From NCBI GenBank assembly GCA_012513125.1, contig JAAZCS010000028.1, positions 1-14,473 of the forward strand: a stretch of DNA of 14,473 nucleotides, given 5' to 3'. Positions 1-14,473 of the stretch are shown here, piece after piece. Numbering within the stretch: the stretch's first letter is position 1; the number at the start of each line of letters is the position of its first letter. Made by a program: the position numbers and the translations under genes. Origin of the DNA: Treponema sp. (GTDB lineage: Bacteria > Spirochaetota > Spirochaetia > Treponematales > Treponemataceae). The notes below the pieces were generated by a model, which worked only from the letters and a program-made list of their open reading frames with translations, did not search any database and was not told the DNA's origin.

Positions 1-230
1 TCATCATACTCGATAGGAGTATGCAAACTATTTACAAATCTATCCCTAAGCTCAAAACCTTCTGCTGAAGTCCATTCTTGCAAAGAATAAATTTTTTCAT
101 TATCTACTTCAACATGATTTACTTTTTCAATAATAGTATTTTTTTCAGCATCAACAGCATACTGTTTAGTCTGATCATCAAGAGATGCAATAATATCATT
201 TAAAAGTTCATCAGTTAATGAAAATACCAT
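1..230 (-). CDS. UPF0158 family protein, partial (C-terminus outside window)
   Basis: The gene starts at the ATG at 230-228 and reads leftward off the window, giving about 76 residues. The translation begins MVFSLTDELLNDIIASLDDQ and continues with a conserved-looking stretch, W-x-S-x-E-G-F-E-L-R-D-R-F-V, then a P-I-E-Y-D-E-like end. The acidic, helical N-terminus followed by a WxSxEGFxLRxxFVxxL segment resembles UPF0158 (PF03682) proteins, small soluble proteins of unknown function; this is recognition by eye. It starts only 3 nt after the clpP stop and has no obvious Shine-Dalgarno (the preceding bases are the end of clpP), so it is probably translated by coupling from the clpP mRNA. No function can be assigned. 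Confidence 0.6.
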   Translation of the reverse strand, partial: MVFSLTDELLNDIIASLDDQTKQYAVDAEKNTIIEKVNHVEVDNEKIYSLQEWTSAEGFELRDRFVNSLHTPIEYD

Positions 231-233
231 ATT

Positions 234-848
234 TTATTTTGGCAAATCAGAACGATTTTGAATCTTTGCGCTTATAAGCCCGTATTCAACCGCTTCCGAA
301 CAATCCAACCAGTGGTCTCTATCTGTATCTTTTGTAACTTGTTCTAAAGGAGTTCCTGTTTCATCGGCTATAATCTTATTCAACAAAGCATGTGTTTTTT
401 CCAATTCTCTTGCATGAATTTGAATATCTGTAGCAACACCACCAATTCCACTCATTGGTTGATGTATTAAATAACGACTATTTGGCAAACCAACTCTCTT
501 TTCTTTTGGCACAGAAAGAAGAATTATTGTGGCTGCACTTGCAATTAAACCCATTCCAATTAATACAACTGGAGCTTTGATAAATCTAATCATATCAAAA
601 ATAGCAAATCCTGCATCAACATCACCACCAGGTGAATCTATATACATATAAATCGTCTTTTTTGCATCATCAGCTTCTAGAACCAACAACTGTCTAACAA
701 TTTTTTCCGCCAAATCTTTGTTGATTTCGCCTGAAAGAATAATCTGCCTTGTTTTCAAAAACTTTTCAGTTAAAGGATCGGGCATTTCTGGTGTTTTTTT
801 AGTTTCATCTTCATCATTAAAAATAGGAGACTCATAAATTGATTTCAT
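234..848 (-). CDS. clpP: ATP-dependent Clp protease proteolytic subunit ClpP (second paralogue type)
   Basis: This is a 204-residue serine protease subunit that forms tetradecameric chambers fed by ClpX or ClpA/C-type unfoldases in the cytoplasm. The catalytic triad is visible: Ser104 in LIASAAT, His129 in RYLIHQPMSG, and Asp178 in the DTDRDHW segment, which aligns with E. coli DTERD. The substrate-binding strand IDSPGGDVDAG (70-80) is also present. The residues around the serine (GMGLIASAATIILL) differ from the usual GQAASMGAxLL, and the first 25 residues are acidic and Pro-rich (NDEDETKK). Both features suggest the divergent second ClpP found in many spirochaetes rather than the housekeeping copy; no clpX follows it. 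The ATG at 848 has a GGAG Shine-Dalgarno about 5 nt upstream and a good promoter at 910-882. The length is normal for the family. Confidence 0.95.
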   Translation of the reverse strand: MKSIYESPIFNDEDETKKTPEMPDPLTEKFLKTRQIILSGEINKDLAEKIVRQLLVLEADDAKKTIYMYIDSPGGDVDAGFAIFDMIRFIKAPVVLIGMGLIASAATIILLSVPKEKRVGLPNSRYLIHQPMSGIGGVATDIQIHARELEKTHALLNKIIADETGTPLEQVTKDTDRDHWLDCSEAVEYGLISAKIQNRSDLPK

Positions 849-881
849 TCTTACTCCAAAATCACTTAAATATATAACTTT

Positions 882-910
882 AATATAGCGAAAGAACAGC
901 CATTTTTCAA
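882..910 (-). promoter_or_regulatory. sigma70-type promoter of clpP
   Basis: On the minus strand a -35 TTGAAA (910-905) and a -10 TATATT (887-882) are separated by exactly 17 nt; each matches consensus at 5 of 6 positions. Transcription would start near 875, giving a leader of about 27 nt that contains the clpP Shine-Dalgarno. Confidence 0.7.
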
Positions 911-933
911 GCCGAATAATCCTTCAACACCTC

Positions 934-965
934 TTAATCAAACGAAAACGATTTCGCTTGATTAA
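934..965. promoter_or_regulatory. LacI-family operator-like dyad (probable autoregulatory site)
   Basis: A 32-bp inverted repeat has arms TTAATCAAACGAAA (934-947) and TTTCGCTTGATTAA (952-965), complementary at 13 of 14 positions and separated by ACGA. Its core, GAAAACGATTTC, has the central CG step and flanking A/T runs expected of LacI/GalR-family operators. The right arm contains the -35 hexamer of the regulator gene's promoter, so a bound repressor would block RNA polymerase there. It lies 59 or more bases upstream of the predicted clpP start site, so an effect on clpP is less likely. The site is seen directly; its use by the adjacent regulator is inferred. Confidence 0.75.
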
Positions 966-986
966 AACTTTGTCTGTCACTACAAT
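958..986 (+). promoter_or_regulatory. promoter of the LacI-family regulator gene
   Basis: A -35 TTGATT (958-963) and a -10 TACAAT (981-986) have a 17-nt spacer. The predicted start is near 993, leaving a leader of about 20 nt that carries a GGGAG Shine-Dalgarno (1002-1006). The -35 lies inside the right arm of the palindrome at 934-965. Confidence 0.65.
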
Positions 987-1012
987 TATATGGTAAGATT
1001 TGGGAGTTTTTA

Positions 1013-2026
1013 GTGATAACATTAAAAGATGTCGCAAAAGAATGCAATGTTTCATTTTCAACAGTTAGCAAGGCTCTAAAAAATAGTTCAGAAATCAGTC
1101 CTGAAACGATTAGACAAATTCAAAAAAAAGCAACTGAAATGGGTTATCATCCAAACATAGCTGCAAGAACGCTTCGGACAAACAAAGCTTTTGATATTGG
1201 CGTCATCTTTGAAGATAAAACTGGAAGCGGTCTTCAACATCAATATTTTGCAAAAATCATCAGTGGATTGCAAAAAACAGCACAAAAATACGGATACGAA
1301 ATTACTTTTACAGGGCGAACAACTCCATCCGATTCTTTTTTTGACTATTATAATCATATTAAATCAAGAAATTTTGATGGCGTTACAATTTTATCAGCAG
1401 ATTTCACAAAAAAAGATATTCAAAAATTAGTTCACAGCGAAATTCCCACTGTTACACTTGATTATTTTTATGATAGAAATCACACGTATATTATGAGCGA
1501 TAACGACAAAGGAATGCGAGAACTTGTTGAATATGCAATCTCCATGGGACATAAAAAAATAGCACTAATTCACGGTGAAAATACTTTCGTTACAAAAGAA
1601 AGAACAAACATTTTTTTAGAAATAATTAAAGACCACGGAATTTCAATTCCAAGCGAATATTTAGTTGAAGCAATGTATCACGACCCAAAAGCGAGTGAAA
1701 TAGCAACAAAATACTTGCTATCTCTTGATGATAAACCAACTTGCATTTTCTATCCTGATGATTATTCTGCCCTTGGAGGCATACAAGTTCTAAACAAATT
1801 GAATCTGACTCCAGGAAAAGACATCAGTATTGCAGGATATGACGGAATTATGTTGACATCTCTTTTAGTTCCTCCTCTTACAACTTATGAACAAGATGGC
1901 GAAACAATCGGAAAATTAATGGTCGAAAATTTGATTAACAAGATTGAAAATAATAATGATGTTAATTGCCAAAGAATTTTAGTTACAGGACACCTTTTAA
2001 AAGGCGGAAGTATAGCTAAAATATAA
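1013..2026 (+). CDS. LacI/GalR-family transcriptional regulator
   Basis: This 337-residue protein has the classic two-part layout. An N-terminal helix-turn-helix (residues 2-21, TLKDVAKECNVSFSTVSKAL) is followed by a hinge (NIAARTLRT, 48-56), whose Leu54 occupies the place of the Leu that LacI-family proteins insert at the central CG of their operators. The rest is a periplasmic-binding-protein-like sensor domain (about 60-337) with typical family stretches such as GHKKIALIHG, PTCIFYPDD and ISIAGYDG. The start is GTG at 1013, supported by GGGAG at 1002-1006; there is no better ATG, and the helix-turn-helix begins immediately. The effector is unknown; the family usually senses sugars or nucleotides. 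The operator-like dyad just upstream suggests autoregulation, and the aminotransferase gene 37 nt downstream is the likely co-regulated partner. Confidence 0.92.
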   Translation: MITLKDVAKECNVSFSTVSKALKNSSEISPETIRQIQKKATEMGYHPNIAARTLRTNKAFDIGVIFEDKTGSGLQHQYFAKIISGLQKTAQKYGYEITFTGRTTPSDSFFDYYNHIKSRNFDGVTILSADFTKKDIQKLVHSEIPTVTLDYFYDRNHTYIMSDNDKGMRELVEYAISMGHKKIALIHGENTFVTKERTNIFLEIIKDHGISIPSEYLVEAMYHDPKASEIATKYLLSLDDKPTCIFYPDDYSALGGIQVLNKLNLTPGKDISIAGYDGIMLTSLLVPPLTTYEQDGETIGKLMVENLINKIENNNDVNCQRILVTGHLLKGGSIAKI

Positions 2027-2051
2027 GTTTTTATGTAGAATGATTGTTCAA

Positions 2052-2057
2052 AGAGGT
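2052..2057 (+). promoter_or_regulatory. Shine-Dalgarno that fixes the aminotransferase start
   Basis: AGAGGT ends 6 nt before the ATG at 2064. It lies downstream of the alternative ATG at 2040, which has only A/T-rich sequence before it, so 2064 is the preferred start. Confidence 0.65.
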
Positions 2058-2063
2058 AATTCT

Positions 2064-3236
2064 ATGGACAAAAAAATTGCAAATAACTACGGAAGTTTTG
2101 ACTTAACTTTTGTAAAAGGAAAAGGTTCAACACTTTATTCTGAAGATGGCAAAAAATACATCGATTTTATTTCAGGTATAGGCGTAAATTGCCTTGGTCA
2201 TAATTACCGTCCATTAGTAAAAGCTATTTCAAATCAAGTAAAAAAAGAAATTCATATATCAAATTATTATTTTTCTGACATAGGCAAAACTTTTGCTGAT
2301 GAATTATTACAAATAACAGATTTTTCAGGAGCTTTTTTAGGCAATTCTGGAGCAGAAGCAAATGAAGCAGCAATTAAATTGGCAAGGAAATATGGACAGC
2401 AAAATGGTGGCGAAAAACGAAAAACAATTGTTACACTTGAACAGTCATTTCACGGAAGAACACTTGCCACTTTAACAGCTACAGGGCAGCAAAAATTTCA
2501 TCCTGACAGCTTTGCACCATACCCACAAGGATTTAAGACTATAAAACCAAATGATTACGAATCTTTGAATAATGCATTTGATGAAACAACTGCCGCACTT
2601 TTTGTAGAATGTATTCAGGGTGAAGGCGGTGTTAATTTAATTGACAAAGAATGGATAAAAAAAGCAAGCGAGCTGGCAAGAAAAGCCGGAGCCATTGTTA
2701 TGACTGATGAAGTTCAAACTGGCGTTTCTAGAACAGGAACTTTCCTTGCAAGTGATTATCTGGATTTTAATCCTGATGTTGTTACATTGGCAAAAGGAAT
2801 TGCAGGTGGCGTTCCGATGGGAGTATGTCTTTACAGAGGAAAAGCAGCAAATGTTTTTGTTGCCGGTGACCATCAATCAACATTTGGCGGAAACCCTTTA
2901 GCATGTGCCGCTGGACATGTTGTTCTTAATACTGTTACTGATGCTGATTTTTTAAATAGAGTTTGCTATGCCGGAGACTATATCAGAGGCAGAATTTCTA
3001 GTTGGAATCTTCCAATTGTAAAAGATGTAAGAGGACGAGGTTTGATGATTGGAACTCAAATTGATTCTTCAATAAAACCTTTTGACATTGAAGTAAAATG
3101 CCTTGAAAAAGGATTATGCACAACTACAGCCGGAAGTGATGTAGTAAGATTTCTTCCACCTCTAAATATTAGTGACGATGAAATTGAACAAGGATTAGCC
3201 ATTTATCAAGAAGTATTGCAATCCTTTTGTAAATAA
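2064..3236 (+). CDS. argD: acetylornithine-type class III aminotransferase (PLP-dependent)
   Basis: This is a class III (fold type I) aminotransferase of about 390 residues, the usual ArgD length. It should catalyse N-acetylornithine + 2-oxoglutarate conversion in arginine biosynthesis, or the related succinyl-diaminopimelate step for lysine. Visible motifs (numbered from this start) are GNSGAEANEAAIKLAR at 93-108 (PLP-phosphate loop), FHGR at 129-132, ECIQGEGGV (a substrate-carboxylate region), TDEVQTG with Asp215 for the pyridine nitrogen, and LAKGIAGGVP with Lys244 as the Schiff-base lysine, then STFGGNPLACA. An in-frame ATG at 2040 would add eight residues, but it lacks a ribosome site; the ATG at 2064 has AGAGGT (2052-2057) about 6 nt upstream and fits the family N-terminus. 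No other arginine gene is present. Ornithine or 4-aminobutyrate transaminase is a less likely alternative. Confidence 0.85.
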   Translation: MDKKIANNYGSFDLTFVKGKGSTLYSEDGKKYIDFISGIGVNCLGHNYRPLVKAISNQVKKEIHISNYYFSDIGKTFADELLQITDFSGAFLGNSGAEANEAAIKLARKYGQQNGGEKRKTIVTLEQSFHGRTLATLTATGQQKFHPDSFAPYPQGFKTIKPNDYESLNNAFDETTAALFVECIQGEGGVNLIDKEWIKKASELARKAGAIVMTDEVQTGVSRTGTFLASDYLDFNPDVVTLAKGIAGGVPMGVCLYRGKAANVFVAGDHQSTFGGNPLACAAGHVVLNTVTDADFLNRVCYAGDYIRGRISSWNLPIVKDVRGRGLMIGTQIDSSIKPFDIEVKCLEKGLCTTTAGSDVVRFLPPLNISDDEIEQGLAIYQEVLQSFCK

Positions 3237-3289
3237 ACATAGAATCTTTTAGTACATTCAGAAATTTTTTATTTAAAAGTAATAATGAT

Positions 3290-6200
3290 ATGAAATTTAA
3301 GAAATTCTATTTATTTTTAATCTTACTTAATGTAACATCTCTTTTTGCCAACGTTCTTAATCATCCAAGGAAAATTAATGTAATTTCAACAGAATATTTT
3401 GACATTATTTTTCCATCTGAATGCACTTTTTTTGCAGATCTTGTTTCGGAACATGCTGATTCATTCTATTTAGATGCTTGTGAAAAATTAAACGCCTCTG
3501 AAAAGTTCAGACTTCCAATTGTGATTTCGCCTGATTCTGATGTGTTATCTGTTGAATACGCCCCTTCTCCATATAATAGAATTGTTATTTACAGTTCTCT
3601 GCCTAAAAAAGACATAACATTTTATGAAGACGATCTTCTGTCTTTGTTAAATAAAGAAATTGTCATCATGACGGCTCGTACAAAACGAGATAAAAATCTG
3701 AAATTTATTGCAAATATCGTTGGTGGTGATTTGTTACAGCCTTCATATATTTTAAATGCACCTTATTCATTTGTTGAAGGAATTAATTTTGTTTCAGATG
3801 ATGATAAAGAAAAGCCATTATTAAAAGATAAATATTCACTGCAACTTTTGGCACAAGCTAAATCAGAAAAAAAGTTTCCATCTTGGTTTCAAATGTCTGG
3901 ATCTAGGGATATTTATCCAAAAAATGATTTAAGCATTGCTGCAATGTCTGGGTTTTCAGCATATATTCAACAAAGATGGGGATTTTCAAAATATATTGAT
4001 TTATGGAATGAATTTGAAAGTTTTCATCCAATAAAATTGTTTAAAGGCACTTTCGAAAAAAACTATGGAATTTCATTAAAACAAGCTTGGGCAGATTTTG
4101 AAGAGTCAATTCCCTTGCCAACTGACTTAATCGACGAAGAAGAGCTTGATACTATTTCAGAAAAAATGCTCTCTTTTGATAAAGACGGTCTTTATGAACA
4201 TCTAATCAGTACACCCTACGGATTTGTTTGGTTTGATAATCTAAAACATGAAGTTTCACTTTTTTCTGATAACAATCTTATTTCAAACACAAGGACATTT
4301 CTGTTTTTTGCTTCTGATGTTACATCCCTAAATTCTTCACCTGACGGCAGATTTTTGATTGTATCTTTTTCTAGAACATCAAACCGAAATAATTTAATGG
4401 AAGATTGTATTCTTATCTTTGATTTAAAACGACTTGTTTTTTTGGAAGAATCATACCCATTAAGAAGTGCATGCATTCTTGAAACTAATGACCAATTTTA
4501 TGCAATAGCGGGAATAAATATAAAGGATACTCTGGCTGAGTTACAAATAATTCCTTCTTCAGAAATCAACGAAATTTTGGCAGATGAAAGAGAAATTGAC
4601 TATTCTTCTTCAAAAAAAATTATTTATTCAAAAATATTCAACTACTCGCAAACACCTTACTCATTATGTTCAATGAATACAAATGAACTTTCTTATTTAC
4701 TTAATTCAGATAATAAAACATATTTTTGCAGTTTTGATATACAAACAAATAAAGAAAAGATTTTTGAAGTAAAAGATTCATCGGGTAATAATATTACGCT
4801 TTATAATCTTCATAGAAGTCATACTCATTTGAACAGCATAAATAATGAGAATTTATCAGAATTTGTATACACATTTCAATTCTTTGATAATTCAGACATA
4901 TCATTTATAAAAACTGGAATAATTACTATTGATGAGGATTTTAATCCTGTAAAAGTTCTACTACAAGATAAAAATGTATCAGGTGGAATTATCAGCTTGG
5001 CATTTGACAAAAATTCAGTTTTATTTTCAACAAGAAGATTTGAACATGATGAATTACGACGAATATCATTAGATAATTTATCTTTTATAAATGGAAATAT
5101 AATTAAAAGTGAAGAAAAAATAATAAAGGAACCTTCTGTTATTCCAGAATTCCAAATTACAAACACTAACAACAAAAAAATTACAAAACTTAATCAATAT
5201 TTCGTAAAAAAGTACACAGTTCTTCCATATTTATTTCACATAAGTGCAATACCTTTGATTTCCATTCTTGATTATTCTGATGAAAAATATGTAATCCAAC
5301 CGGGAATAGGCATTTCTTTTGTGACACAAAATGATCCGTTATTAAACAATAAAATTACATTCACTGCAAAATACAATTTTACAAACCCTATAGAAAATAT
5401 TGATATCATTTCTTCAACAAACGATTTTGATTCTATTCTGTATTTGTCCTATTCATTTGCAGAAAGTCTTACAAAACTTTTTTTTCTAACTGGGCAAAAA
5501 ACACTTTCTATTGATATTAAAAACAAATCAACACCTGTCGATATTGATCTCAATTCTATTGTTGATTTTTATGACAATGGACAGTATCAAATAAAAATAA
5601 ACACAAGCACAAATTGGGCTGTTCCATTAGGGATGACGTTTAAACACTTAAATCTTGGTTTAAAAAGTGAATTAAGAGCTTCTTCTATTTATTATGACTA
5701 TTCAACAAATACCTCATTGCTATTCAAATTTAATTATCCTTCAATTTTTGAATCCTATAGAACAATTAAACTATCATTCAATGGAGTTTTTTCAAATATC
5801 CATCAATATGGAATTTCACCTTATGAAAAAAGAGGTTTTTCCTTTGGTTTGAACATTTATTCACTTTGGGATTTTTATTTAATTGATGATAATGAATATC
5901 AACGCCAAGAATACTATGTAGAATTTCTTGACTCGCCAACTATAGAAAGTTATATCGACTATCTAACTTTTGAAAATGATACACTTGACGGTCCTTCTCA
6001 AATTAACTTGAATATTTTTGCTTCTCTTCAAATCCCACAATTAACACCTCTTCAAAATGTTGATAATTGGATTTTATCTGTACCAGCTACTATTAATGTA
6101 AATCTCTTTAGAAAAACTGGAGAAGCTTTTACATCAAATGCTGAAATACTTTTAATTGGAAAAGAAATTCAAAATGGTATACCAGCTTTATTATTATATT

Positions 6201-6472
6201 TTGAACGTGCAGGATTAATTCTGGGATATAATTTTACGTTGAATTATAATCGTTTTCTCATCAGTACACCTGATCTTAGAAACTTTGAAACATATCAAAA
6301 TATTTTCTCAAATACAGTATTAAGCGATTATGCCTATTTGAAATTAAACATCGATTTTTCCCCTGTTGTAGGTAAATACTCAACTTACAAGTTCTCAGCC
6401 AATCTAAATTTTAATTATTATATTAGAACTAACACTTTCAAAGTGAACTTTGGATTTTCCATAAATAAATAA
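3290..6472 (+). CDS. large exported envelope protein: inactive peptidase-MA-like domain, propeller-like middle, C-terminal beta-barrel-like region
   Basis: This 1060-residue protein has a signal peptide (MKFKK plus a hydrophobic core, likely cut after LFA at residue 20). Residues 30-275 follow the layout of gluzincin 'peptidase MA-like' domains: EYFDIIFPSE, an A-D-S-F-Y helix, a helix where HExxH is expected, then an EG motif (FVEGIN, Glu163), a FPSWFQMSGSRDIYP segment and a C-terminal WADF. At the HExxH site it reads KEIVI (122-126), so both zinc histidines are gone and peptidase activity is unlikely. Residues about 300-640 carry beta-rich repeats including a TolB-like SPDGRFLIVSF near 349. 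From about 644 to the end there are alternating aromatic/hydrophobic strands and an N-D-P-L-L-N-N-K motif reminiscent of Omp85/D15-like barrels, ending FKVNFGFSINK. It probably resides in the outer membrane. The start has only a weak ribosome site. It lies 53 nt after argD. Function unknown. Confidence 0.75.
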   Translation: MKFKKFYLFLILLNVTSLFANVLNHPRKINVISTEYFDIIFPSECTFFADLVSEHADSFYLDACEKLNASEKFRLPIVISPDSDVLSVEYAPSPYNRIVIYSSLPKKDITFYEDDLLSLLNKEIVIMTARTKRDKNLKFIANIVGGDLLQPSYILNAPYSFVEGINFVSDDDKEKPLLKDKYSLQLLAQAKSEKKFPSWFQMSGSRDIYPKNDLSIAAMSGFSAYIQQRWGFSKYIDLWNEFESFHPIKLFKGTFEKNYGISLKQAWADFEESIPLPTDLIDEEELDTISEKMLSFDKDGLYEHLISTPYGFVWFDNLKHEVSLFSDNNLISNTRTFLFFASDVTSLNSSPDGRFLIVSFSRTSNRNNLMEDCILIFDLKRLVFLEESYPLRSACILETNDQFYAIAGINIKDTLAELQIIPSSEINEILADEREIDYSSSKKIIYSKIFNYSQTPYSLCSMNTNELSYLLNSDNKTYFCSFDIQTNKEKIFEVKDSSGNNITLYNLHRSHTHLNSINNENLSEFVYTFQFFDNSDISFIKTGIITIDEDFNPVKVLLQDKNVSGGIISLAFDKNSVLFSTRRFEHDELRRISLDNLSFINGNIIKSEEKIIKEPSVIPEFQITNTNNKKITKLNQYFVKKYTVLPYLFHISAIPLISILDYSDEKYVIQPGIGISFVTQNDPLLNNKITFTAKYNFTNPIENIDIISSTNDFDSILYLSYSFAESLTKLFFLTGQKTLSIDIKNKSTPVDIDLNSIVDFYDNGQYQIKINTSTNWAVPLGMTFKHLNLGLKSELRASSIYYDYSTNTSLLFKFNYPSIFESYRTIKLSFNGVFSNIHQYGISPYEKRGFSFGLNIYSLWDFYLIDDNEYQRQEYYVEFLDSPTIESYIDYLTFENDTLDGPSQINLNIFASLQIPQLTPLQNVDNWILSVPATINVNLFRKTGEAFTSNAEILLIGKEIQNGIPALLLYFERAGLILGYNFTLNYNRFLISTPDLRNFETYQNIFSNTVLSDYAYLKLNIDFSPVVGKYSTYKFSANLNFNYYIRTNTFKVNFGFSINK

Positions 6473-6474
6473 AA

Positions 6475-6505
6475 AAACCATTCCGAATAAAATCCGAAAT
6501 GGTTT
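6475..6505. terminator. convergent bidirectional terminator
   Basis: The 14-nt arms 6475-6488 and 6492-6505 (AAACCATTCCGAAT and ATCCGAAATGGTTT) pair at 12 of 14 positions around a 3-nt loop. On the minus strand the stem is followed by seven T's (6477-6471), a classical intrinsic terminator for adk. On the plus strand, downstream of the barrel-protein gene, the T-rich tail is shorter. The element begins 3 nt after the plus-strand stop codon at 6472. Confidence 0.8.
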
Positions 6506-6528
6506 AATTAGAAAAAAAACTAATTAAA
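6503..6528. repeat. second inverted repeat abutting the adk stop
   Basis: TTTAATTAG (6503-6511) and CTAATTAAA (6520-6528) are perfectly complementary around a run of eight A's. The repeat overlaps the end of the terminator stem and the adk stop codon (6526-6524). It may be a backup minus-strand termination or 3'-end stabilising hairpin. Confidence 0.5.
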
Positions 6529-7150
6529 ATATTTTTTTAAATTCTTTCAAAAGAACATCTGTTTCTATTGAAGCATCTAAATCAGTTATAGCACCTTTTT
6601 CTTTAAAAAAATTGATTAAAGGTTCTGTTTGTTCTCTATAAACATCCATTCTGTGAAGAATAGATTCGCTCTTATCATCGTCGCGTTGATATAGTTCACC
6701 GCCACATTTATCACAAACACCTTCAACTTTTGGTGGAAGTGTTAGAACATTAAAGTTCGCTCCGCAAGATTTGCAAACACGTCTTGTTGAAAGACGGCGA
6801 ATTACAGCTTCATCTGCAATAACAAAATTTACTACTTTTACATCAGAACAAATAGATGTGAACATCTGTGCTTGAGGTATTGTTCTTGGAAATCCATCCA
6901 AAATAAAACCATTTGCTACATCAGGGGCAGAAAGTCTGTCTTTTACCAATTCACAAGTTACTTCATCACTAACCAAAGCACCAGAATCAATAATTGCCTT
7001 AACTTTAATTCCAAGTGGAGTTTGATTTTTAATCGCAGCACGGAAAATATCCCCTGTTGAAATGTGAGGAATTTTGTAATCAGCAGCAACTTTAACAGCC
7101 AATGAACCTTTACCAGCTCCCGGTGGTCCTAAAAAAATAAAATTATTCAT
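6524..7150 (-). CDS. adk: adenylate kinase with zinc-binding lid
   Basis: This 208-residue cytoplasmic enzyme catalyses ATP + AMP to 2 ADP. Motifs are the P-loop GPPGAGKG (8-15), STGDIFR (31-37, AMP binding), DGFPRT (85-90), and a long-form LID with four cysteines, C126-x2-C129 and C146-x2-C149, which is the structural zinc site found in many Gram-positive and some other bacterial adenylate kinases. The ATG at 7150 has a strong AGGAGA Shine-Dalgarno (7160-7155). It lies downstream of ettA and purB on the same strand, forming an adenine-nucleotide cluster. Its leader is unusual: a hairpin ending in six T's abuts the Shine-Dalgarno. The gene ends in a good terminator. Confidence 0.97.
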   Translation of the reverse strand: MNNFIFLGPPGAGKGSLAVKVAADYKIPHISTGDIFRAAIKNQTPLGIKVKAIIDSGALVSDEVTCELVKDRLSAPDVANGFILDGFPRTIPQAQMFTSICSDVKVVNFVIADEAVIRRLSTRRVCKSCGANFNVLTLPPKVEGVCDKCGGELYQRDDDKSESILHRMDVYREQTEPLINFFKEKGAITDLDASIETDVLLKEFKKIF

Positions 7151-7161
7151 AATTTCTCCTA

Positions 7162-7207
7162 TAAAAAAGTTATGAGTAAAGCTTCAGCTTTAGGAATAAC
7201 TTTTTTA
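7162..7207 (-). terminator. terminator- or attenuator-like hairpin directly before the adk ribosome site
   Basis: Outer arms AAAAAAGTTAT (7163-7173) and ATAACTTTTTT (7196-7206) pair perfectly over 11 bp; T7162 and A7207 add one more pair. Inside, after a 3x3 internal loop, TAAAGC (7177-7182) and GCTTTA (7187-7192) pair around a TTCA loop. On the minus strand the stem ends in six T's (7168-7163) and, 2 nt later, the AGGAGA of adk. This could stop transcription arriving from ettA, attenuate it, or control access to the ribosome site. Confidence 0.65.
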
Positions 7208-7208
7208 C

Positions 7209-7228
7209 GCTGTTTTGCATAAAACAGC
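7209..7228. repeat. perfect 8-bp hairpin, second of four in the ettA-adk gap
   Basis: GCTGTTTT (7209-7216) and AAAACAGC (7221-7228) pair perfectly around GCAT. It sits 1 nt from the neighbouring hairpin at 7162-7207. A weak minus-strand -10-like TATATT (7234-7229) lies just upstream of it but lacks a recognisable -35. Confidence 0.65.
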
Positions 7229-7239
7229 AATATATATGA

Positions 7240-7256
7240 AGTTTGCAACGCAAACT
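7240..7256. repeat. perfect 7-bp hairpin, third of four in the ettA-adk gap
   Basis: AGTTTGC (7240-7246) and GCAAACT (7250-7256) pair perfectly around AAC. There is no T-run on either side, so it is not a classical terminator. Confidence 0.6.
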
Positions 7257-7259
7257 GCC

Positions 7260-7301
7260 TAATTAACACTGTGATTTAATATAAAATCACAGTGTTAATT
7301 A
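7260..7301. repeat. perfect 18-bp inverted repeat directly after the ettA stop
   Basis: TAATTAACACTGTGATTT (7260-7277) and AAATCACAGTGTTAATTA (7284-7301) are exact reverse complements around AATATA. It begins one base after the ettA stop codon (7305-7303). In RNA it would form a very stable stem at the ettA 3' end. There is no T-run after it, so a role in RNA 3'-end protection or a protein-binding site is as plausible as rho-independent termination. Confidence 0.8.
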
Positions 7302-7302
7302 T

Positions 7303-9021
7303 TTATCTTGATAACTTTCTGTACACAGTTCTTTTTGGAACGCCGGCGTCTTCACCGAATTGAACTTTTTTCCATTCAGCGTATTCACTCCAGTTTCCTT
7401 CAAAAAAGCGTACTTCACTATTATTTTCAAAAGCCAAAATATGAGTGCAAATTCTATCCAAAAACCATCTATCATGACTTACAACTAAAGCACAACCAGC
7501 AAAATCTTCCAAGGCCTCTTCTAGGGCACGAACAGTTTGAACGTCTAAGTCATTTGTTGGTTCATCAAGCATCAACACATTTCCGCTTTCTTTTAACATC
7601 ATGCCTAAATTCAATCTATTTTTTTCACCACCAGAAAGAACACTTACTTTTTTATTCTGATCTGCTCCACCAAAGTTAAACCACGAACAATAAGCGTGTG
7701 CATTAACTTCCCTTACGCCGCCTTCAAGTGCTCTACCCTTTTCATCTACAGCTCCTAATCTTACTAAATCAGAGCCACCACCAAGAGTTTCATAAACAGT
7801 TTTATTATCATCAAGCGTAGATCTCATCTGATCAATATAAACAGGTTTTACTGTTGCTCCAATTTTAATTTCACCAGAATCAGGTTTTTCTAATCCGGTA
7901 ATTAATTTAAATAAAGTAGTTTTACCAGCTCCGTTTGGACCGACAATGCCAACAATTGCACCAGAAGGAATATGAAAGCTTAAATTTTCAAATAAAATTT
8001 TATCGCCAAAAGATTTTGTTAGATTTTCTGCATCAATAACTTGATTTCCAAGACGAGGTCCAGCAGGAATTGAAATTTGAGTATCTTTCAACTGAGTTTT
8101 AGACCCTTGTGCCATCAATTCATTATAACGAGTGATATGTTCCTTGTGCTTTGCCTGACGACCTTTTGCACCCATATGAATCCATTCCAATTCGCGTGCA
8201 ATTTCTTTTTGTCTTTGACTTTCACCTTTAGCTTCTAGAGAAAGCCTTTGGTTCTTCTGTTCCAACCAGCTAGAATAATTACCTTTAAATGGGTAACCTT
8301 CACCTCTATCAAGCTCTAAAATCCATCCTGCAACATCATCAAGAAAATATCTATCATGGGTAATTGCAATTACAGTTCCTTCATATTCATTCAAATGATT
8401 CTCAAGCCACGCTACTGTTTCTGCATCCAAATGGTTTGTTGGTTCATCCAATAAAAGAATGTCAGGTTTTTGCAACAAAAGACGGCAAAGTGCAACACGG
8501 CGACGTTCACCACCGGAAAGCACATCAACACATTGATCTCCTGTAGGACAACGAAGAGCATCCATTGCAAGCTCAAGATTGTTATCAAGATTCCAAGCAT
8601 CACAAGCATCAAGTTTTTCCTGAATTTCTGCTTGTCTTGAACAAAGCTTGTCAAAATCTGCATCTGGTTCACCAAAAGCTTCATTTATTTTATCAAATTC
8701 TGCCAATAAATCTGTGATATTTTTTACACCTTCTTTCACAACTTCCATTACGGTTTTTCCGCTTTGAAGTTCAGGCTCTTGCTCCAAATATCCAATTGTA
8801 TATCCTGGTGCGAGCGAAGTTTCACCGGCGTAATCCTTATCAATTCCAGCTAAAATCTTAAATAGACTTGATTTACCAGAACCATTTGGACCTATTACAC
8901 CAATTTTAGCCCCGTAATAATATGAAATGCTAATATCTTTTAATACGACTTTTGTTCCGTAAGAGCGTGAAACTCTATCCATTGTGTAAATGATTTTTTT
9001 GTCATCAAATGTTTTTGCCAT
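7303..9021 (-). CDS. ettA: energy-dependent translational throttle protein EttA (ABC-F ATPase)
   Basis: This 572-residue protein has two ABC domains and no transmembrane part. EttA binds the ribosomal E site and gates the first translocation step according to the ATP/ADP ratio. Domain 1 has Walker A GPNGSGKS (44-51), signature LSGGERRR (from 168) and Walker B LLLDEPTNHLD with catalytic Glu193. The interdomain linker contains ELEWIHMGAKGRQAKHKEH (277-295), matching the EttA P-site-tRNA-interaction motif. Domain 2 has GPNGAGKT (361-368), LSGGEKNR (from 462) and LMLDEPTNDLD with Glu487. Near-colinear similarity to E. coli EttA, including AGWILELDRGEG and NYSSWLEQK, separates it from Uup, YheS and antibiotic-resistance ABC-F types. 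The start ATG shares one base with the purB stop (TAATG), so translation is probably coupled. Confidence 0.95.
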   Translation of the reverse strand: MAKTFDDKKIIYTMDRVSRSYGTKVVLKDISISYYYGAKIGVIGPNGSGKSSLFKILAGIDKDYAGETSLAPGYTIGYLEQEPELQSGKTVMEVVKEGVKNITDLLAEFDKINEAFGEPDADFDKLCSRQAEIQEKLDACDAWNLDNNLELAMDALRCPTGDQCVDVLSGGERRRVALCRLLLQKPDILLLDEPTNHLDAETVAWLENHLNEYEGTVIAITHDRYFLDDVAGWILELDRGEGYPFKGNYSSWLEQKNQRLSLEAKGESQRQKEIARELEWIHMGAKGRQAKHKEHITRYNELMAQGSKTQLKDTQISIPAGPRLGNQVIDAENLTKSFGDKILFENLSFHIPSGAIVGIVGPNGAGKTTLFKLITGLEKPDSGEIKIGATVKPVYIDQMRSTLDDNKTVYETLGGGSDLVRLGAVDEKGRALEGGVREVNAHAYCSWFNFGGADQNKKVSVLSGGEKNRLNLGMMLKESGNVLMLDEPTNDLDVQTVRALEEALEDFAGCALVVSHDRWFLDRICTHILAFENNSEVRFFEGNWSEYAEWKKVQFGEDAGVPKRTVYRKLSR

Positions 9022-10448
9022 TAATTATTTTCCATTAATTTTAGATATTTTTCAGCCAATCTTTTTGACTTCTTAGCCGCTAATCCACAATAATTTGCTG
9101 GATTTTCAAAGAAATTTGCAGGATCTTCTACGCCTAATTTTTCAAGTTGAGCTGTAATTTTTGAATAAGCATCTGTGTGTGTTTTTAACACTTCAAAGAA
9201 AGTTTTTCCACTTTTTTCAGCTTCCAATGTAATTTTTCGGATAACTTCATGTCCGTCAGAAACACCAGCTTCTCCAAGTAAAATATAAGCTGGCTCTGCA
9301 AGAACACCACCTTTTACTTTTCCACCGGCACCAAGAAGATTTTTCAACATATTTTCTTTATCAGCCTGCAAACCGCTTACAACTTTTTTCATGCGTGCAA
9401 CTGCCATAGTAAAACCGGCAGTATAATCAGCGATAAATCTTTGACTCGCGGAATTTGTTAAATCTCTTTGATGTTCTGAAATTTGATCCATGTAAAAAGT
9501 AATCACACGTGGACACATAGCTTTCCATAAAGATTTAACATGTTCGCTGTTCCAAGGATTTCTTTTTTGAGGCATTGTTGATGACCCAACTTGTGTTGAT
9601 GAGAAATATTCAAATACTTCACCAATTTCCGATCTTTGCAAATTACGTAAATCGTCAGCCAAATTGGCAATAACACCAAATGCAACATTAAACTCTAAAA
9701 GAAGTCTAAGCAAATATTCAGGTTCAACCAATTGGTTTGAATATTCAGAAGGCTCTAAACCTAAGAAAGACAAATATCTTTTTTCTAAATCTTCTGGATC
9801 TTTTACAATCATGCTAGGACCATTGTAAGAACCAACAGGACCAGCCAATTTTCCTTTTAACTGATTTGAAAGTTCCTCAATACGAAGAATAGATTTTCCC
9901 AATCTGCTTACAAATTCCGCAATAGACCATCCAAAAGTGATAGGAATTGCATGCTGACCATGAGTTCTTCCAACTTGAGGTGTTGAGCAATCTCTTTGAG
10001 CAATTGTACATAACGCCTTTTCTAAATCTTTTAATTCAGGAAGAACAACATTCTGTGTAACATCGCGCATTCTCATAGAAAGTGCTGTGTCCAAAATATC
10101 AACAGATGTTGCACCTAAATGAACTAATGGAGCTAAATCAGAAGGCACTTTTGTCTTCATAACATTTACTAAAGCCCTAATATTATGCTGAGTTTTTTCT
10201 TCCTCTGCATACACTTCTTCTGGGTTAATGTTTTTTGCAGCTTCATCCAACTGTGATTCAATTTCTTTTGAAAGTTGGCCACGAATATCAAGATGAGCTT
10301 TTACCAATGCGGCTTCAGCTTTTGCACAAGAACGGACTGAGGCTTCCTCTGAAATATATTCGGAAAGTTTAGCAAAAACTTCCTTTTCTGACAAAGAATA
10401 ACGATGATCCAAACAGGATATGTTTTCAAAAATGTTTCTAGTTTCCAT
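9021..10448 (-). CDS. purB: adenylosuccinate lyase
   Basis: This 475-residue member of the fumarase/aspartase superfamily splits adenylosuccinate to AMP and fumarate, and SAICAR to AICAR, in purine synthesis. Superfamily motifs are HLGATSVDILDTA (from His110), GRTHGQHAIP with His163 and His166 (general acid region), and the signature loop GSSTMPQKRN (288-297) carrying the catalytic serine. The N-terminus (NISCLDHRYSLS) matches the PurB branch. An in-frame TAA two codons upstream and the family N-terminus fix the ATG at 10448. There is no Shine-Dalgarno before it; instead an extended -10 TGATATAAT ends 7 nt upstream, suggesting a leaderless transcript. The gene overlaps ettA by one base and lies 36 nt after the membrane-protein gene. 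Confidence 0.96.
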   Translation of the reverse strand: METRNIFENISCLDHRYSLSEKEVFAKLSEYISEEASVRSCAKAEAALVKAHLDIRGQLSKEIESQLDEAAKNINPEEVYAEEEKTQHNIRALVNVMKTKVPSDLAPLVHLGATSVDILDTALSMRMRDVTQNVVLPELKDLEKALCTIAQRDCSTPQVGRTHGQHAIPITFGWSIAEFVSRLGKSILRIEELSNQLKGKLAGPVGSYNGPSMIVKDPEDLEKRYLSFLGLEPSEYSNQLVEPEYLLRLLLEFNVAFGVIANLADDLRNLQRSEIGEVFEYFSSTQVGSSTMPQKRNPWNSEHVKSLWKAMCPRVITFYMDQISEHQRDLTNSASQRFIADYTAGFTMAVARMKKVVSGLQADKENMLKNLLGAGGKVKGGVLAEPAYILLGEAGVSDGHEVIRKITLEAEKSGKTFFEVLKTHTDAYSKITAQLEKLGVEDPANFFENPANYCGLAAKKSKRLAEKYLKLMENN

Positions 10449-10455
10449 AATTTAA

Positions 10456-10464
10456 ATTATATCA
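10456..10464 (-). promoter_or_regulatory. extended -10 promoter at the purB start codon
   Basis: On the minus strand TGATATAAT (10464-10456) is a full TGnTATAAT extended -10. The 17-nt-upstream hexamer TAGATT is a weak -35, which extended -10 promoters tolerate. Only 7 nt separate the hexamer from the purB ATG, so transcription should begin at or within about 2 nt of the start codon. Confidence 0.5.
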
Positions 10465-10484
10465 AAAAAGGATGTTATAATCTA

Positions 10485-12641
10485 TTACCTTTTACTCGCG
10501 ATTCCATTTACATTTGTTATTTTTGCGATAAAATCATCAGCTTCTTCCAAAGTCATTCCCTCTTTTACGACAACAGCTTCCTTTGCTTCAACTTGCTTAT
10601 ACATATCATTAGCTTCATTGTATGTAAGATCGGGCCTAAATGCTCTTATTATGTTGATAATATTTACTTTTCGGGCATTTGATGTATTTTCCAAAACAAC
10701 TGAATAAGTTGCCTCTGGTGAATCTGTAGAATTAGTCTGTAATTCTGTTGATTTTCCTGATAAATCTGATGATTTTGCCGAAGATTCCGCCTTATTTGCA
10801 TCAGAATGATTTTCCACAGGAGTCGGAACTGCTTCTTTTTCTGTTGAAACCGCACTTTGCTCCGATTCTGTCACTGTAGAATCTGTTACAGGTGAAGAAG
10901 AAGGAGTATCCGGTTTATATACAAGACGAATAACTTCGGATTCAGAACGATGTCTTGATTTTAACAACAATGTGCCATTATTACCTACATATACATAGCC
11001 AGAAGAATTGTAATTTTCGAATCTTGGATCTGTTCTAAATTGCATATCATAAATGTAAATTTCGTCAAAAGATTCAATTCCTTTTATAATCAAATAATGT
11101 GTGTATGTAACAGGGAAGTCGATAGTAAGTCTAATTGTGTCATCTGCATCCTTTTTGTAAGTAATAGAACGAGCAACTGTCCATGCCCAAACTTTATTTC
11201 CTTTTTCATTTGTATTAATAAGTTCAAAATGAGGATAATACCAGTTATCATAAGCCATGATAGTATATAGCCGAGAAAGTGTTTTCATATCAAATGATGA
11301 ATTATCAGAAAGATAAGAATTGATAATTACATGTCCGCCTTTTTCAAGAACGTTGTTTCCACTCAATTTTCCGTATCTGATTAATGCTGAACCAGTTTCT
11401 ACAGCTTGAACAACAGAAACAAAAGTATCATTTTCTGATAACGCAACAGTATCTCCCTCGTAAGAACAACATTGAGTTATCTTTTCTATACAAGTGTTGA
11501 TTATTGGTGTTAAATATTTTGCGTAATCAGGATTCAATTTGGTTAATTCTACATAAGTTGAAACAATTCCTGACGCTTGAGACAAAGTGCATTCCGATAA
11601 ATCATAAGCTGCTGTCTTTGACAATAAACTTGAAACAATTTTTGGATTACTATGAATTGCCAAGAAATTTGCAAGATTGTCCATTGTGTAAATATCCAAA
11701 TTAAATGAATCAACAGTTTTCTTAATCTGAGTTTCTTTTACTGAAATCTCATTTTCCAAAACTATGTTCATATTTGCAAGACTATCAAAATAAGGAGCTG
11801 ATAAATAAGTTCTTTGAATATCCTGCTTAAATGAAGACGGAATATTTTCAATTGCCTGTAAATAATCTCCATTTTCTGCCATAGCTGCAACATATGCAAC
11901 AACAGAAGATTCATTATAACTTCCGTCGCGTAAAGAAGAATTAAATAAAGATATAAAATTATTTCGTAAACTAGTAATAGAACTTTTATATATTGATTCA
12001 TCTGCCAAAGCAAGATTTACTATGCTATCAAATGTGAATTTTTCTTTATCATCATAAAGTGAATAATGTGCATTATCTCCATTCTCAGAAAAACTAACAT
12101 ATTCATCTTCATAACCATGAGTATATAAATTCCATGTACTATTTCGACCTTTCAAAATAACTCTTCGATCATTTTCAGAATCAAGTTGCTGCATATTTCG
12201 CGAATAACTATATGGCAAGTAAAAATGTTCCACATCAGAAGGCATGATAACAGAAACTGATAAAGGAGAATCTGATTTTTCATCGCTGACATCAATAATT
12301 AGTTCTATTCCATTTGAATAATCAAACTGATAAGAACGTACATTTGTTTTTCGCCAGGAAATCAATTCAACAGGTTTTCTTTCCTTTTCATTTTTGACCT
12401 TTATCAAAGCAGGATTTTGATCAGTTGCAGTAAAAATAATTCCGTTGTAATTCACCTGTAAATAGTTCTGTAAAACTGATACATTGTCTGAGGTTTTTGA
12501 TTCAGCTAAAACAATTTGAAGATTTCCATTTTTTTTGATAATGGTTGAATCATTTCTAAATTGCAAGACGAAAATGCCGATTATTATTATAATGTCTATG
12601 ATTAAAAATCTGATAGCTTTTCTTATTACGCGAGTACCCAT
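10485..12641 (-). CDS. inner-membrane-anchored periplasmic protein with C-terminal ribosomal L7/L12-like domain
   Basis: This is a 718-residue protein of unrecognised overall family. A basic N-terminus (MGTRVIRKAIR) precedes one hydrophobic helix (about 11-27) with no cleavage site, so it is probably an N-in signal anchor with the rest in the periplasm. Residues 35-200 and 460-576 look beta-rich; 200-460 look helical. Residues 577-643 are a Ser/Thr/Glu-rich linker. The last ~75 residues (644-718) resemble the L7/L12 C-terminal domain: Y-S-V-V-L, then K-V-N-I-I-N-I-I-R (658-666), L-T-Y-N-E-A (672-677) and V-V-K-E-G-M-T-x-E-E-A (691-701), in the order and spacing of L12's KVAVIKAVR, LGLKEAK and LKEGVSKDDA. 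The start ATG lacks a clear ribosome site and lies 9 nt after a good promoter's -10. It is the first gene of a possible unit with purB, ettA and adk. Function unknown. Confidence 0.75.
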   Translation of the reverse strand: MGTRVIRKAIRFLIIDIIIIIGIFVLQFRNDSTIIKKNGNLQIVLAESKTSDNVSVLQNYLQVNYNGIIFTATDQNPALIKVKNEKERKPVELISWRKTNVRSYQFDYSNGIELIIDVSDEKSDSPLSVSVIMPSDVEHFYLPYSYSRNMQQLDSENDRRVILKGRNSTWNLYTHGYEDEYVSFSENGDNAHYSLYDDKEKFTFDSIVNLALADESIYKSSITSLRNNFISLFNSSLRDGSYNESSVVAYVAAMAENGDYLQAIENIPSSFKQDIQRTYLSAPYFDSLANMNIVLENEISVKETQIKKTVDSFNLDIYTMDNLANFLAIHSNPKIVSSLLSKTAAYDLSECTLSQASGIVSTYVELTKLNPDYAKYLTPIINTCIEKITQCCSYEGDTVALSENDTFVSVVQAVETGSALIRYGKLSGNNVLEKGGHVIINSYLSDNSSFDMKTLSRLYTIMAYDNWYYPHFELINTNEKGNKVWAWTVARSITYKKDADDTIRLTIDFPVTYTHYLIIKGIESFDEIYIYDMQFRTDPRFENYNSSGYVYVGNNGTLLLKSRHRSESEVIRLVYKPDTPSSSPVTDSTVTESEQSAVSTEKEAVPTPVENHSDANKAESSAKSSDLSGKSTELQTNSTDSPEATYSVVLENTSNARKVNIINIIRAFRPDLTYNEANDMYKQVEAKEAVVVKEGMTLEEADDFIAKITNVNGIASKR

Positions 12642-12650
12642 AGTCTTTAT

Positions 12651-12679
12651 ATTCTAATTAATGATTAATGGAATTTCAA
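12651..12679 (-). promoter_or_regulatory. promoter of the L12-domain membrane-protein gene
   Basis: On the minus strand a -35 TTGAAA (12679-12674), a 17-nt spacer and a -10 TAGAAT (12656-12651) each match consensus at 5 of 6 positions. Only 9 nt separate the -10 from the ATG at 12641, predicting a leader of about 2-4 nt. The spacer contains a tandem ATTAATG pair (plus-strand 12657-12670), and ATTTCAAC occurs twice (12673-12680 and 12688-12695). Confidence 0.6.
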
Positions 12680-12719
12680 CTGTTTAGATTTCAACAAAAT
12701 TCATGAGGAAACAATTAAT

Positions 12720-14117
12720 ATGAAAAAAATTACACTTTTCGCTGTTACAATGTTGGCTTTTATGTTCTTATCAGTCTCTTGCTTAAGCTCTCCTTCAACA
12801 GATGGAAATTCAACAAAGCAAGATACAACGTCTAACACAAAAGATTCACCTGATGTGGAATTTGTTAAGAAAGTTCAAACTTTATTAAATAAAGGAGATT
12901 ATAAACAAGCGATTGCACTTTTTGACAATATGCCATCTCAATTAAAAAATAATCAAGATTTGCAGCTTATTTTGGCATCATTATATTTTTCGGATTCACA
13001 ATATGACGCAGCAAAAGAAGTTGCAGAAAAAGTTCTCGTTTCTGATCCAGATAACATGGAAGCGTTGGAGCTTTTATCGCTTATCGCAAAATCTACCGGT
13101 GACAAAAAAACAAATTCAGAGATAAATGCAAAAATTCTTACAAAAGATCCATACAATACGTCAATCAATATTCAACAAGCAGAAGATTATGTTCTAAATC
13201 ATAAATACAAACTGGCAAAAAATTCATACAAAAAAGCTCTTCAAAATGACCCAGAAAATAAAGACGCTTTATTTGGGTATGCACAAATGTCTTACTATAG
13301 TGGCGACGTAAAAGAAGCATCTGAGATTTTTCAACAGATTATCAACGATGATAAAACAAATTACCAAGCAATAGCATACCTTGGAAAAATTGCAGCTGAA
13401 GACCAGAATTACCTAAGGGCTCAAAATTATGTTCAAGAAGCAATAAAATATAATCCTACAAGTTATGATGCGTACCTAGATTTAGGAAGTTATCTTCGTT
13501 ATCAAGGAAAATATGAAGATGCAATAAAAGCATGGAACAAGGCGATTGAATTGGATTCAGGTTATTTTTTAGGCTATGCATATTTAGCAGGAATTTACGA
13601 TGAACAAAATAACTATAACAAAGCAATTGAAAATTATCATAAAGTAATAGAAACAAACCCAAAATATTTTTATGCATATGAAGCGTGTGCTGTTTTGGAA
13701 TTCCACGAAAAACAATATGAATCGGCACAAAAGAATTTTCAGAAAGCATATAGCTATAGCAAGAATTATTCTTACCAATTGATGATTGCTGCAATTTATT
13801 TAATTCAAAAAGATTCAATTAACGCAAAAAAAGTATTATCTTCTTTATTAAAGACATTAAACAGAGATAGTGCTGAATATGACCTTGTACGATTCTTCAA
13901 TGAGTCGTATAGCAAAAACGCAGAGGCAACATTAATTCAAAAAATCGAAAAAACCGATGACCGAAATGCAAAAGGCAAAATGCTTTTCTATATGGGACTA
14001 TATTATGAAATTAATGGATTTAGCGAAAATGCATTTGAATATTATTCAAAGGTGATTAAAATGCAAGCACCTATGTTCTTTGAATATAGATTTGCAGAAT
14101 GGGGAATTAAGGAATGA
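12720..14117 (+). CDS. TPR-repeat lipoprotein
   Basis: This is a 465-residue protein with a lipoprotein signal: MKK, a hydrophobic core and LSVSC with the lipidated Cys at 21, a permissive spirochaete-style lipobox. A Ser/Thr/Asn/Lys/Asp tether (22-45) follows. The rest is a tandem array of tetratricopeptide-type helix pairs, roughly nine to ten between 48 and 460; the clearest are YKLAKNSYKKALQNDPENKD (163-182), YEDAIKAWNKAIELD (265-279) and YNKAIENYHKVIETNPKYF (299-317), each with the Ala/Pro pattern of the family. TPR lipoproteins usually scaffold envelope protein complexes; no enzyme motif is visible. The ATG at 12720 has GAGGAA (12705-12710) 9 nt upstream. It overlaps the next gene by 4 nt (ATGA) and is divergent from the membrane-protein gene. 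Confidence 0.88.
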   Translation: MKKITLFAVTMLAFMFLSVSCLSSPSTDGNSTKQDTTSNTKDSPDVEFVKKVQTLLNKGDYKQAIALFDNMPSQLKNNQDLQLILASLYFSDSQYDAAKEVAEKVLVSDPDNMEALELLSLIAKSTGDKKTNSEINAKILTKDPYNTSINIQQAEDYVLNHKYKLAKNSYKKALQNDPENKDALFGYAQMSYYSGDVKEASEIFQQIINDDKTNYQAIAYLGKIAAEDQNYLRAQNYVQEAIKYNPTSYDAYLDLGSYLRYQGKYEDAIKAWNKAIELDSGYFLGYAYLAGIYDEQNNYNKAIENYHKVIETNPKYFYAYEACAVLEFHEKQYESAQKNFQKAYSYSKNYSYQLMIAAIYLIQKDSINAKKVLSSLLKTLNRDSAEYDLVRFFNESYSKNAEATLIQKIEKTDDRNAKGKMLFYMGLYYEINGFSENAFEYYSKVIKMQAPMFFEYRFAEWGIKE

Positions 14118-14473
14118 CACACACAAACGAATATAACGGACGAAAAATCACGTTGATTGGTACAGCTCATGTTTCGGAAATGAGTGTAAAAGAAGTTACA
14201 GATACAATCAATGAAATAAATCCTGATTGCGTTGCCGTTGAACTAGATGAAAAAAGAGCAGATTCAATCCAAAACCAGGAAAAATATAAGAATCTGGATA
14301 TTATAAAAGTTCTAAAAAACAACGAAGGCTTCCTTCTTTTGGCAAATCTTGTTTTATCATCGTTTCAGCGAAGAATGGGAATGAATGTCGGCATGAAACC
14401 CGGAGACGAAATGCTTGCTGCTATGAACACCGCAAAAGATAAAAATATCCCTTCTGTAATGGCAGATAGACCA
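14114..14473 (+). CDS. TraB/PrgY (TraB/GumN) family protein, partial (C-terminus outside window)
   Basis: The first 120 residues are present, running off the window in an open frame. The ATG at 14114 overlaps the TPR gene's stop as ATGA; GGGGA at 14101-14105 is a well-spaced Shine-Dalgarno. The sequence shows the family's N-terminal hallmark GTAHVS (residues 17-22, the GxxH-type motif shared with Tiki-like putative metallopeptidases), then VAVELDEKR (about 41-49), SSFQRRMG and KPGDEM. The family includes Enterococcus PrgY/TraB, which limits pheromone signalling, and membrane-bound bacterial and archaeal homologues; these usually have C-terminal transmembrane helices, not visible here. Overlap with the TPR lipoprotein suggests coupled translation and perhaps joint action at the envelope. 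Confidence 0.88.
   Translation, partial: MTHTNEYNGRKITLIGTAHVSEMSVKEVTDTINEINPDCVAVELDEKRADSIQNQEKYKNLDIIKVLKNNEGFLLLANLVLSSFQRRMGMNVGMKPGDEMLAAMNTAKDKNIPSVMADRP

Follow-up and report, generated by a model that had tools for sequence, protein, structure and literature searches.

Why would a protein that is predicted to face away from the cytoplasm end in a domain of the ribosomal stalk? The question is raised by a 14,473-nucleotide stretch of DNA from Treponema sp. (assembly GCA_012513125.1, contig JAAZCS010000028.1, positions 1 to 14,473; hereafter the window), in which a reverse-strand gene encodes a 718-residue protein with a membrane anchor at its N-terminus and an L7/L12-like C-terminal domain (CTD) at its other end. 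The L12 CTD is normally bound to the ribosome and catches GTPases there. Our preferred answer, to which we give a probability of roughly 0.6, is that a stalk CTD, most likely a duplicate of the one in the genus's own rplL, has been captured by an anchored periplasmic protein and serves it as an extracytoplasmic docking domain.

The tail is an L7/L12 C-terminal domain

Residues 645-718 are a genuine L7/L12 CTD, truly homologous to that of bL12. The features concerned are:

10488..10709, reverse strand: L7/L12 C-terminal-like domain (residues 645-718), from profile and predicted fold
10638..10670, reverse strand: helix equivalent to L12 helix 4 (residues 658-668), with the equivalents of Lys65, Ile69 and Arg73 retained in or beside it
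10587..10622, reverse strand: helix equivalent to L12 helix 5 (residues 674-685), with the preceding GLGL loop and the equivalent of Lys84 gone

The initial annotation had proposed that the last ~75 residues follow the L7/L12 pattern. Indeed, the domain scores 28.1 bits against a profile built only from rplL, and the top of 20,000 shuffles reaches 9.7 bits. This rplL-only profile comprises 39 rplL CTDs of the genus; the rplL of G463 (L087), which belongs to another genus, was excluded. A profile made from six tails matches solved L12 at 1.2e-7. The curated cut-off of PF00542 is 25.9 bits, and against that family the window protein scores 21.3 bits as a whole, 25.7 bits as its last 122 residues (hmmscan) and 26.4 bits in a six-frame search. 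Three of its relatives score 40.5 (P0051), 32.9 (P0112) and 28.1 bits (L104).

The predicted structure agrees. The domain has the beta-alpha-alpha-beta-alpha-beta fold of the L12 CTD, and the superposition on L12 that the initial annotation had proposed as a check, made here with the predicted structure, gave best fits of 1.1-1.6 Å. Residues 641-718 have block means of 80-95 for the predicted local distance difference test (pLDDT) in the whole-protein model, and a model of the domain alone, made from the window's own sequence, has a mean pLDDT of 93.3.

The rest of the protein is not a ribosomal stalk protein. The N-terminal, L10-binding dimerisation domain of bL12 was not found in a Pfam scan to E 1, which returned only PF00542 and a weak match to Peptidase_C25_C. 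The gene sits between a purB-like gene and a TPR gene and not in an rplJ-rplL-rpoB region; the true rplL of this genome is elsewhere, at C339, next to frames that we read as L10 and RpoB.

The host protein is predicted to be anchored and extracytoplasmic

The protein is laid out as follows:

10485..12641, reverse strand: open reading frame of the 718-residue protein, with membrane anchor, conserved body, linker and L12-CTD tail
12558..12632, reverse strand: N-terminal transmembrane helix (residues 4-28) with a basic N-flank, from hydropathy, a predicted helix at 4-28 and charge balance
12039..12551, reverse strand: beta-rich domain (residues 31-201), like the periplasmic domain of YidC
11247..12017, reverse strand: alpha-helical domain (residues 209-465)
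10917..11234, reverse strand: C-terminal beta domain of the body (residues 470-575), from the AlphaFold2 model and invariant columns
10719..10907, reverse strand: disordered linker rich in Ser, Thr and Glu (residues 579-641), with pLDDT <50; linkers change fast among the relatives

The whole-protein model was made with AlphaFold2 on a 47-row alignment. The row modelled was P0001, which is the window protein except at residue 36 (K36E). The predicted template modelling score is 0.60, and the model divides the body into three parts (beta, alpha, beta) with the last domain separate. Of the alignment's 64 invariant columns, 25 fall in the beta domain at 470-575. A Foldseek search with the body gave a mixed list. 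Matches of the body to GH31, GH105 and alpha-2-macroglobulin are at a level that a common arrangement is enough to explain.

Hydropathy finds a single hydrophobic helix, at residues 4-28, and no further stretch above the limit in the 718 residues. The flank before this helix carries a charge of +4 and the flank after it +2. The same bias runs through the family: in all 120 listed homologues (the best 120 of 494) the N-flank is the more positive, with means of +3.1 vs +0.6. From the flank charges and the one N-terminal helix, the N-terminus is predicted to be cytoplasmic and the remainder extracytoplasmic, and the case for an extracytoplasmic body and tail is, as a prediction from sequence, a strong one. 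The initial annotation had described the anchor as basic then hydrophobic and had placed the L12 copy outside the inner membrane; the helix with its N-flank of +4 agrees with the former, and the C-out prediction for the listed homologues with the latter.

The factor-binding surface is about half rewritten

A passage of PMC6753160 places the binding of IF2, EF-Tu, EF-G and RF3 by the L12 CTD at a positively charged site on helices 4 and 5. We compared this surface across 12 aligned tails, and the counts that follow depend on that alignment. The single residues named are those we take to form the factor site, and the labels follow what we take to be the E. coli numbering.

Position 65 is basic and position 69 is Ile or Val in 12/12 tails, and position 73 is Arg or Lys in 10/12. 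Lys70, Gly79 and Leu80 are retained in none of the 12, and Lys84 in one. Relative to L12, most tails have one residue inserted between the helices, and the window's type has four inserted before the second strand. On this alignment about half of the factor site is rewritten in the tails, with Lys70, Gly79 and Leu80 lost throughout, Lys84 lost in all but one, and the insertions just described. The tails do not carry the conserved bL12 factor-binding surface of helices 4 and 5. The earlier remark that conserved glycines of L12 are partly replaced also holds: Gly79 is absent from all 12 tails and the GLGL loop is lost.

The domain appears to be kept by selection

The L12 domain appears to be constrained like the body and unlike the linker. 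For L110 vs L120 (Nei-Gojobori, one pair), the domain has a ratio of nonsynonymous to synonymous substitution rates (dN/dS) of 0.127, against 0.147 for the body and 0.452 for the linker. Likewise, P0001 and P0002 are identical at 54/73 positions of the domain, 435/576 of the body and 19/59 of the linker.

Only a minority of a widespread spirochaete protein family has the L12 tail

The host family is spirochaetal. Its members have one N-terminal membrane helix, a conserved body of ~575 residues and a variable tail after ~575. The body was matched in 65/296 sampled genomes of the phylum; within the window's family most of these genomes match the greater part of the body, and beyond the family the matches are mostly partial.

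Few members carry the L12 tail. With the rplL-only profile we found it in six of the 120 listed homologues (P0001, P0002, P0004, P0051, P0112 and P0115) and in four of 80 named loci (L106, L110, L120 and L183), where 74/80 tails had the length needed for scoring. The two samples share members: P0051 is L106 and P0039 is L123. There is a clear gap below the L12 tails, with the next row at 1.4 bits. In P0039 the start of an L12 domain can be read by eye at the contig end. The other 75/80 named-locus tails have no L12 by profile or by eye; their median length is 49 residues and they are rich in Ala, Glu, Thr, Ser and Pro. We also ran the tail profile against two overlapping genome sets, 196 from the genus and 392 from the phylum, with extra matches listed for 17 genomes. 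The tail occurs on the window's body type in at least 8/196 genus genomes, G118 having only a fragment at a contig edge; G121, G055, G102 and G107 are the same cases as L106, L110, L120 and L183 and were counted once.

On an 87-row tree of the body, tail state changes at least 8 times, with 5 of the changes forced by starred branches, and gain and loss are not separable; the tree was made by a quick method, several rows are long, and seven rows were included for carrying the tail.

P0051 (L106), a membrane-anchored protein of 676 residues, bears the public name 'ribosomal protein L7/L12'. This misleading annotation was presumably given because of the L12 tail, and such a name would mislead annotation pipelines.

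The domain probably comes from the genus's own rplL

Two positions mark the rplL of the genus. Position 107 is Ile or Val in 11/12 tails and in 37/39 rplL of the genus, and Lys in 19/19 rplL of other genera; position 117 is Ala in 11/12 tails and 37/39 genus rplL, and Val in 19/19 of the others. All six tails compared score higher against the genus rplL set (40 rows, one of them the G463 rplL, L087, from another genus) than against that of other genera, by mean and by maximum. The tails group with genus rplL in the domain tree, as do the L12 copies of other exported-looking proteins described below, and many rows of that tree are long. Once the long rows are taken out, the tails come together as a single clade (100/99), in an analysis whose bootstrap had not settled and whose free search overlooked better trees. 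With 69 columns, the alignment is too short for a phylogenetic proof of origin. With moderate confidence, we infer from the diagnostic positions and scores that the tail derives from a duplicated CTD of the genus's own rplL.

Other exported-looking proteins carry the same domain

The tail-profile search, and for P0123 a search with the double domain of G164, also led to L12 CTDs on proteins of other architectures. In G025 a 192-residue frame begins with a hydrophobic segment and carries two L12 copies close to the canonical form, the better at 108 bits with the rplL-only profile. The protein of G164 (L095 2105-4162, reverse strand; P0121) has a signal-like N-terminus, two L12 CTDs (best copy 87 bits) and, after them, matches to FGE-sulfatase (SUMF1-like) in two stretches. 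G007 (L094) and G463 (L093, another genus) have lipobox proteins with one L12 copy each, at 86 and 84 bits; the two CTDs are almost identical and sited among repeats, which in a Pfam scan of the G007 protein are of InlB type and LRR. P0123 (785 residues) starts with a hydrophobic segment and contains four near-canonical L12 CTDs; a degenerate stretch scoring 1.4 bits separates the third from the fourth. The lipobox pattern is present in G007 and G463 and not in G025, G164, P0123 or G165; the lipoprotein-like label of G025 is FMGC read by eye.

Six aligned copies, from four of these other exported-looking proteins, retain Lys65, Ile69, Lys70, Leu80 and Lys84 in 6/6 and Arg73 in 4/6. Outside the window's genus, the only frame of more than 224 residues among the matches listed in the phylum search is that of G463. 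Residues 640-718 alone, searched against long proteins, returned the window protein only (1/30 candidates), and a search for the double domain of G164 returned 3/2526 candidates: its own cluster, P0123 and P0124.

Several candidates were set aside. P0124 is an L10-L12 fusion. Weak matches in G094, G114 and G182 (E 0.002-0.01) were rejected once their frames had been read, and G149 offers 33 residues only, at a contig edge. G165 (L097) matches the tail profile, with 7.6 bits against the rplL-only profile, below the shuffle maximum, and no Pfam family. G112 (L077 343-1704, forward strand) encodes a cytoplasmic-looking protein that combines a double zinc ribbon and a weak Sel1 repeat with an L12 CTD at the C-terminus; its N-terminus is not signal-like, and it was left out of the count.

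The rplL of G463 itself groups with that of other genera in the domain tree, and its repeat-protein copy pairs with G007 (99/94). This combination suggests that the repeat-protein gene of G463 was transferred from the window's genus. More broadly, and tentatively, since we would put this at somewhat below even odds, a Treponema lineage may have copied its own stalk CTD repeatedly into exported proteins as a general extracytoplasmic docking module, with at least one case, the G007/G463 pair, passed to another genus. The exported types would then be membrane-anchored, lipoprotein-like, FGE-domain and LRR/InlB-repeat proteins, with up to four copies per chain.

Neighbouring genes

12720..14117, forward strand: divergent TPR gene, a lipoprotein by reading of its N-terminus, with TPR domains in the Pfam scan

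The divergent TPR gene lies upstream of the body gene in 76/80 named loci; in the remaining four the body match begins no more than 175 nucleotides from the locus end. In the window the region between the anchored-protein gene and the TPR gene spans 78 nucleotides (12642-12719).

Further away, 3290-6472 on the forward strand encodes a 1060-residue protein whose N-terminus looks signal-like by eye. Neither Pfam (to E 1) nor NCBIfam (to E 0.001) matches it, and tblastn at 1e-20 gave nothing for it in the 80 named loci, whose flanks of up to 8 kb may not reach its place.

What the tail may do

Docking to a partner is the simplest reading, and we propose this function with moderate confidence; the initial annotation had likewise suggested reuse as a protein- or ligand-binding module. 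The N-terminal helix would hold the body at the inner membrane, the 63-residue flexible linker would supply reach, and the small, stable CTD would bind a partner, much as the hinged CTD of the stalk captures GTPases on the ribosome. The anchor, hinge and CTD of the ribosomal stalk would thus be repeated in the envelope. A first candidate partner is the divergently encoded TPR protein, proposed because of gene position only, or another envelope protein.

The main rival is that the domain is real and has no specific ligand, being a stable folded cap against proteolysis or for solubility. Any small fold would then suffice, so that most sampled relatives could end in low-complexity tails, as they do in 75/80 named loci, and the repeated changes of tail state on the body tree fit this. 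Against a cap stand the basic residue at 65 and the Ile or Val at 69 in every tail, the mostly retained position 73, and the low dN/dS of the domain in the one pair compared. The occurrence of the domain in unrelated exported-looking proteins, including tandem copies, likewise suggests more than a cap, which we consider unlikely. More radical is the proposal that the L12 assignment itself is wrong and that the tail is a convergent or generic alpha/beta fold, ClpS-like or PBP3-region-like. The tail profile does reach one ClpS chain at E 0.013, but the window protein has no ClpS match in the Pfam scan to E 1, structural alignments to the ClpS adaptor give 12-17% identity to the domain, and the profile scores above point to L12; we find this extremely improbable.

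Two further possibilities keep the ancestral partners in play. The domain could bind EF-Tu, or another leaked or surface-displayed GTPase, outside the cytoplasm through its inherited surface, helices 4 and 5 being where the L12 CTD meets its factors according to the passage of PMC6753160. The six copies in the four other proteins, with their near-complete factor sites, would suit such binding, but tails of the window's own type have had about half of this surface replaced, and we rate the idea as improbable. Alternatively, the topology could be inverted, with the C-terminus in the cytoplasm, where it would go on recruiting a translational GTPase to the membrane. Retention of Lys or Arg at 65, Ile or Val at 69 and mostly Arg at 73 would be expected in that case. 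Yet the flank charges favour N-in/C-out in every listed homologue, Lys70, Gly79 and Leu80 are gone from all tails and Lys84 from all but one, and the relatives with near-intact factor sites are those with signal-like N-termini; this topology seems to us slightly less probable again.

Several results weigh against docking by a captured stalk CTD. The window protein falls below the PF00542 cut-off in hmmscan; of 21 Foldseek matches at E <=0.001, 18 are ClpS and 3 are L12; and the rplL-only profile gives the divergent tails low scores (L183 16.4, P0115 13.7 and G006 11.0 bits). Positions 65, 69 and 73 are retained, and the factor site therefore survives in part. The estimate of constraint comes from one pair only. 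The approximately unbiased test leaves a grouping of the tails with the rplL of other genera unrejected (p 0.528, long rows removed). Finally, the tail is found in a minority of the family and is therefore not needed for the basic role of the body.

Relation to known systems

The protein is like ribosomal bL12 (CTD family PF00542) in profile, in fold, in carrying the domain at the end of a flexible hinge and at positions 65, 69 and mostly 73. It is unlike bL12 in having no N-terminal dimerisation domain, in being membrane-anchored and in having its gene away from rplL; its tail has a longer loop between helices 4 and 5, has lost GLGL, Lys70 and Lys84, and is predicted to be extracytoplasmic. 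SPOR-type envelope proteins have an N-terminal membrane helix, a long low-complexity linker and a C-terminal alpha/beta domain of ~75 residues. Their architecture is that of the window protein; the domain family is another, and the Pfam scan gave no SPOR match.

The fold and the family were thus already known, and fusion of an L12 domain is already in print: a passage of PMC8283722 reports it as a rare accessory domain in one of 473 orthocaspases, a cyanobacterial one. There too the domain is joined to an unrelated protein; that passage states nothing on export or recurrence. Among the titles and abstract starts listed by our literature searches, which covered few subscription papers and used terms without the slashed 'L7/L12', none reported an exported L12 domain.

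A lineage that sets this domain outside the cytoplasm, keeps it under constraint and uses it in several architectures unrelated to one another would offer a clear example from nature of a core part of the translation machinery turned into an envelope module.
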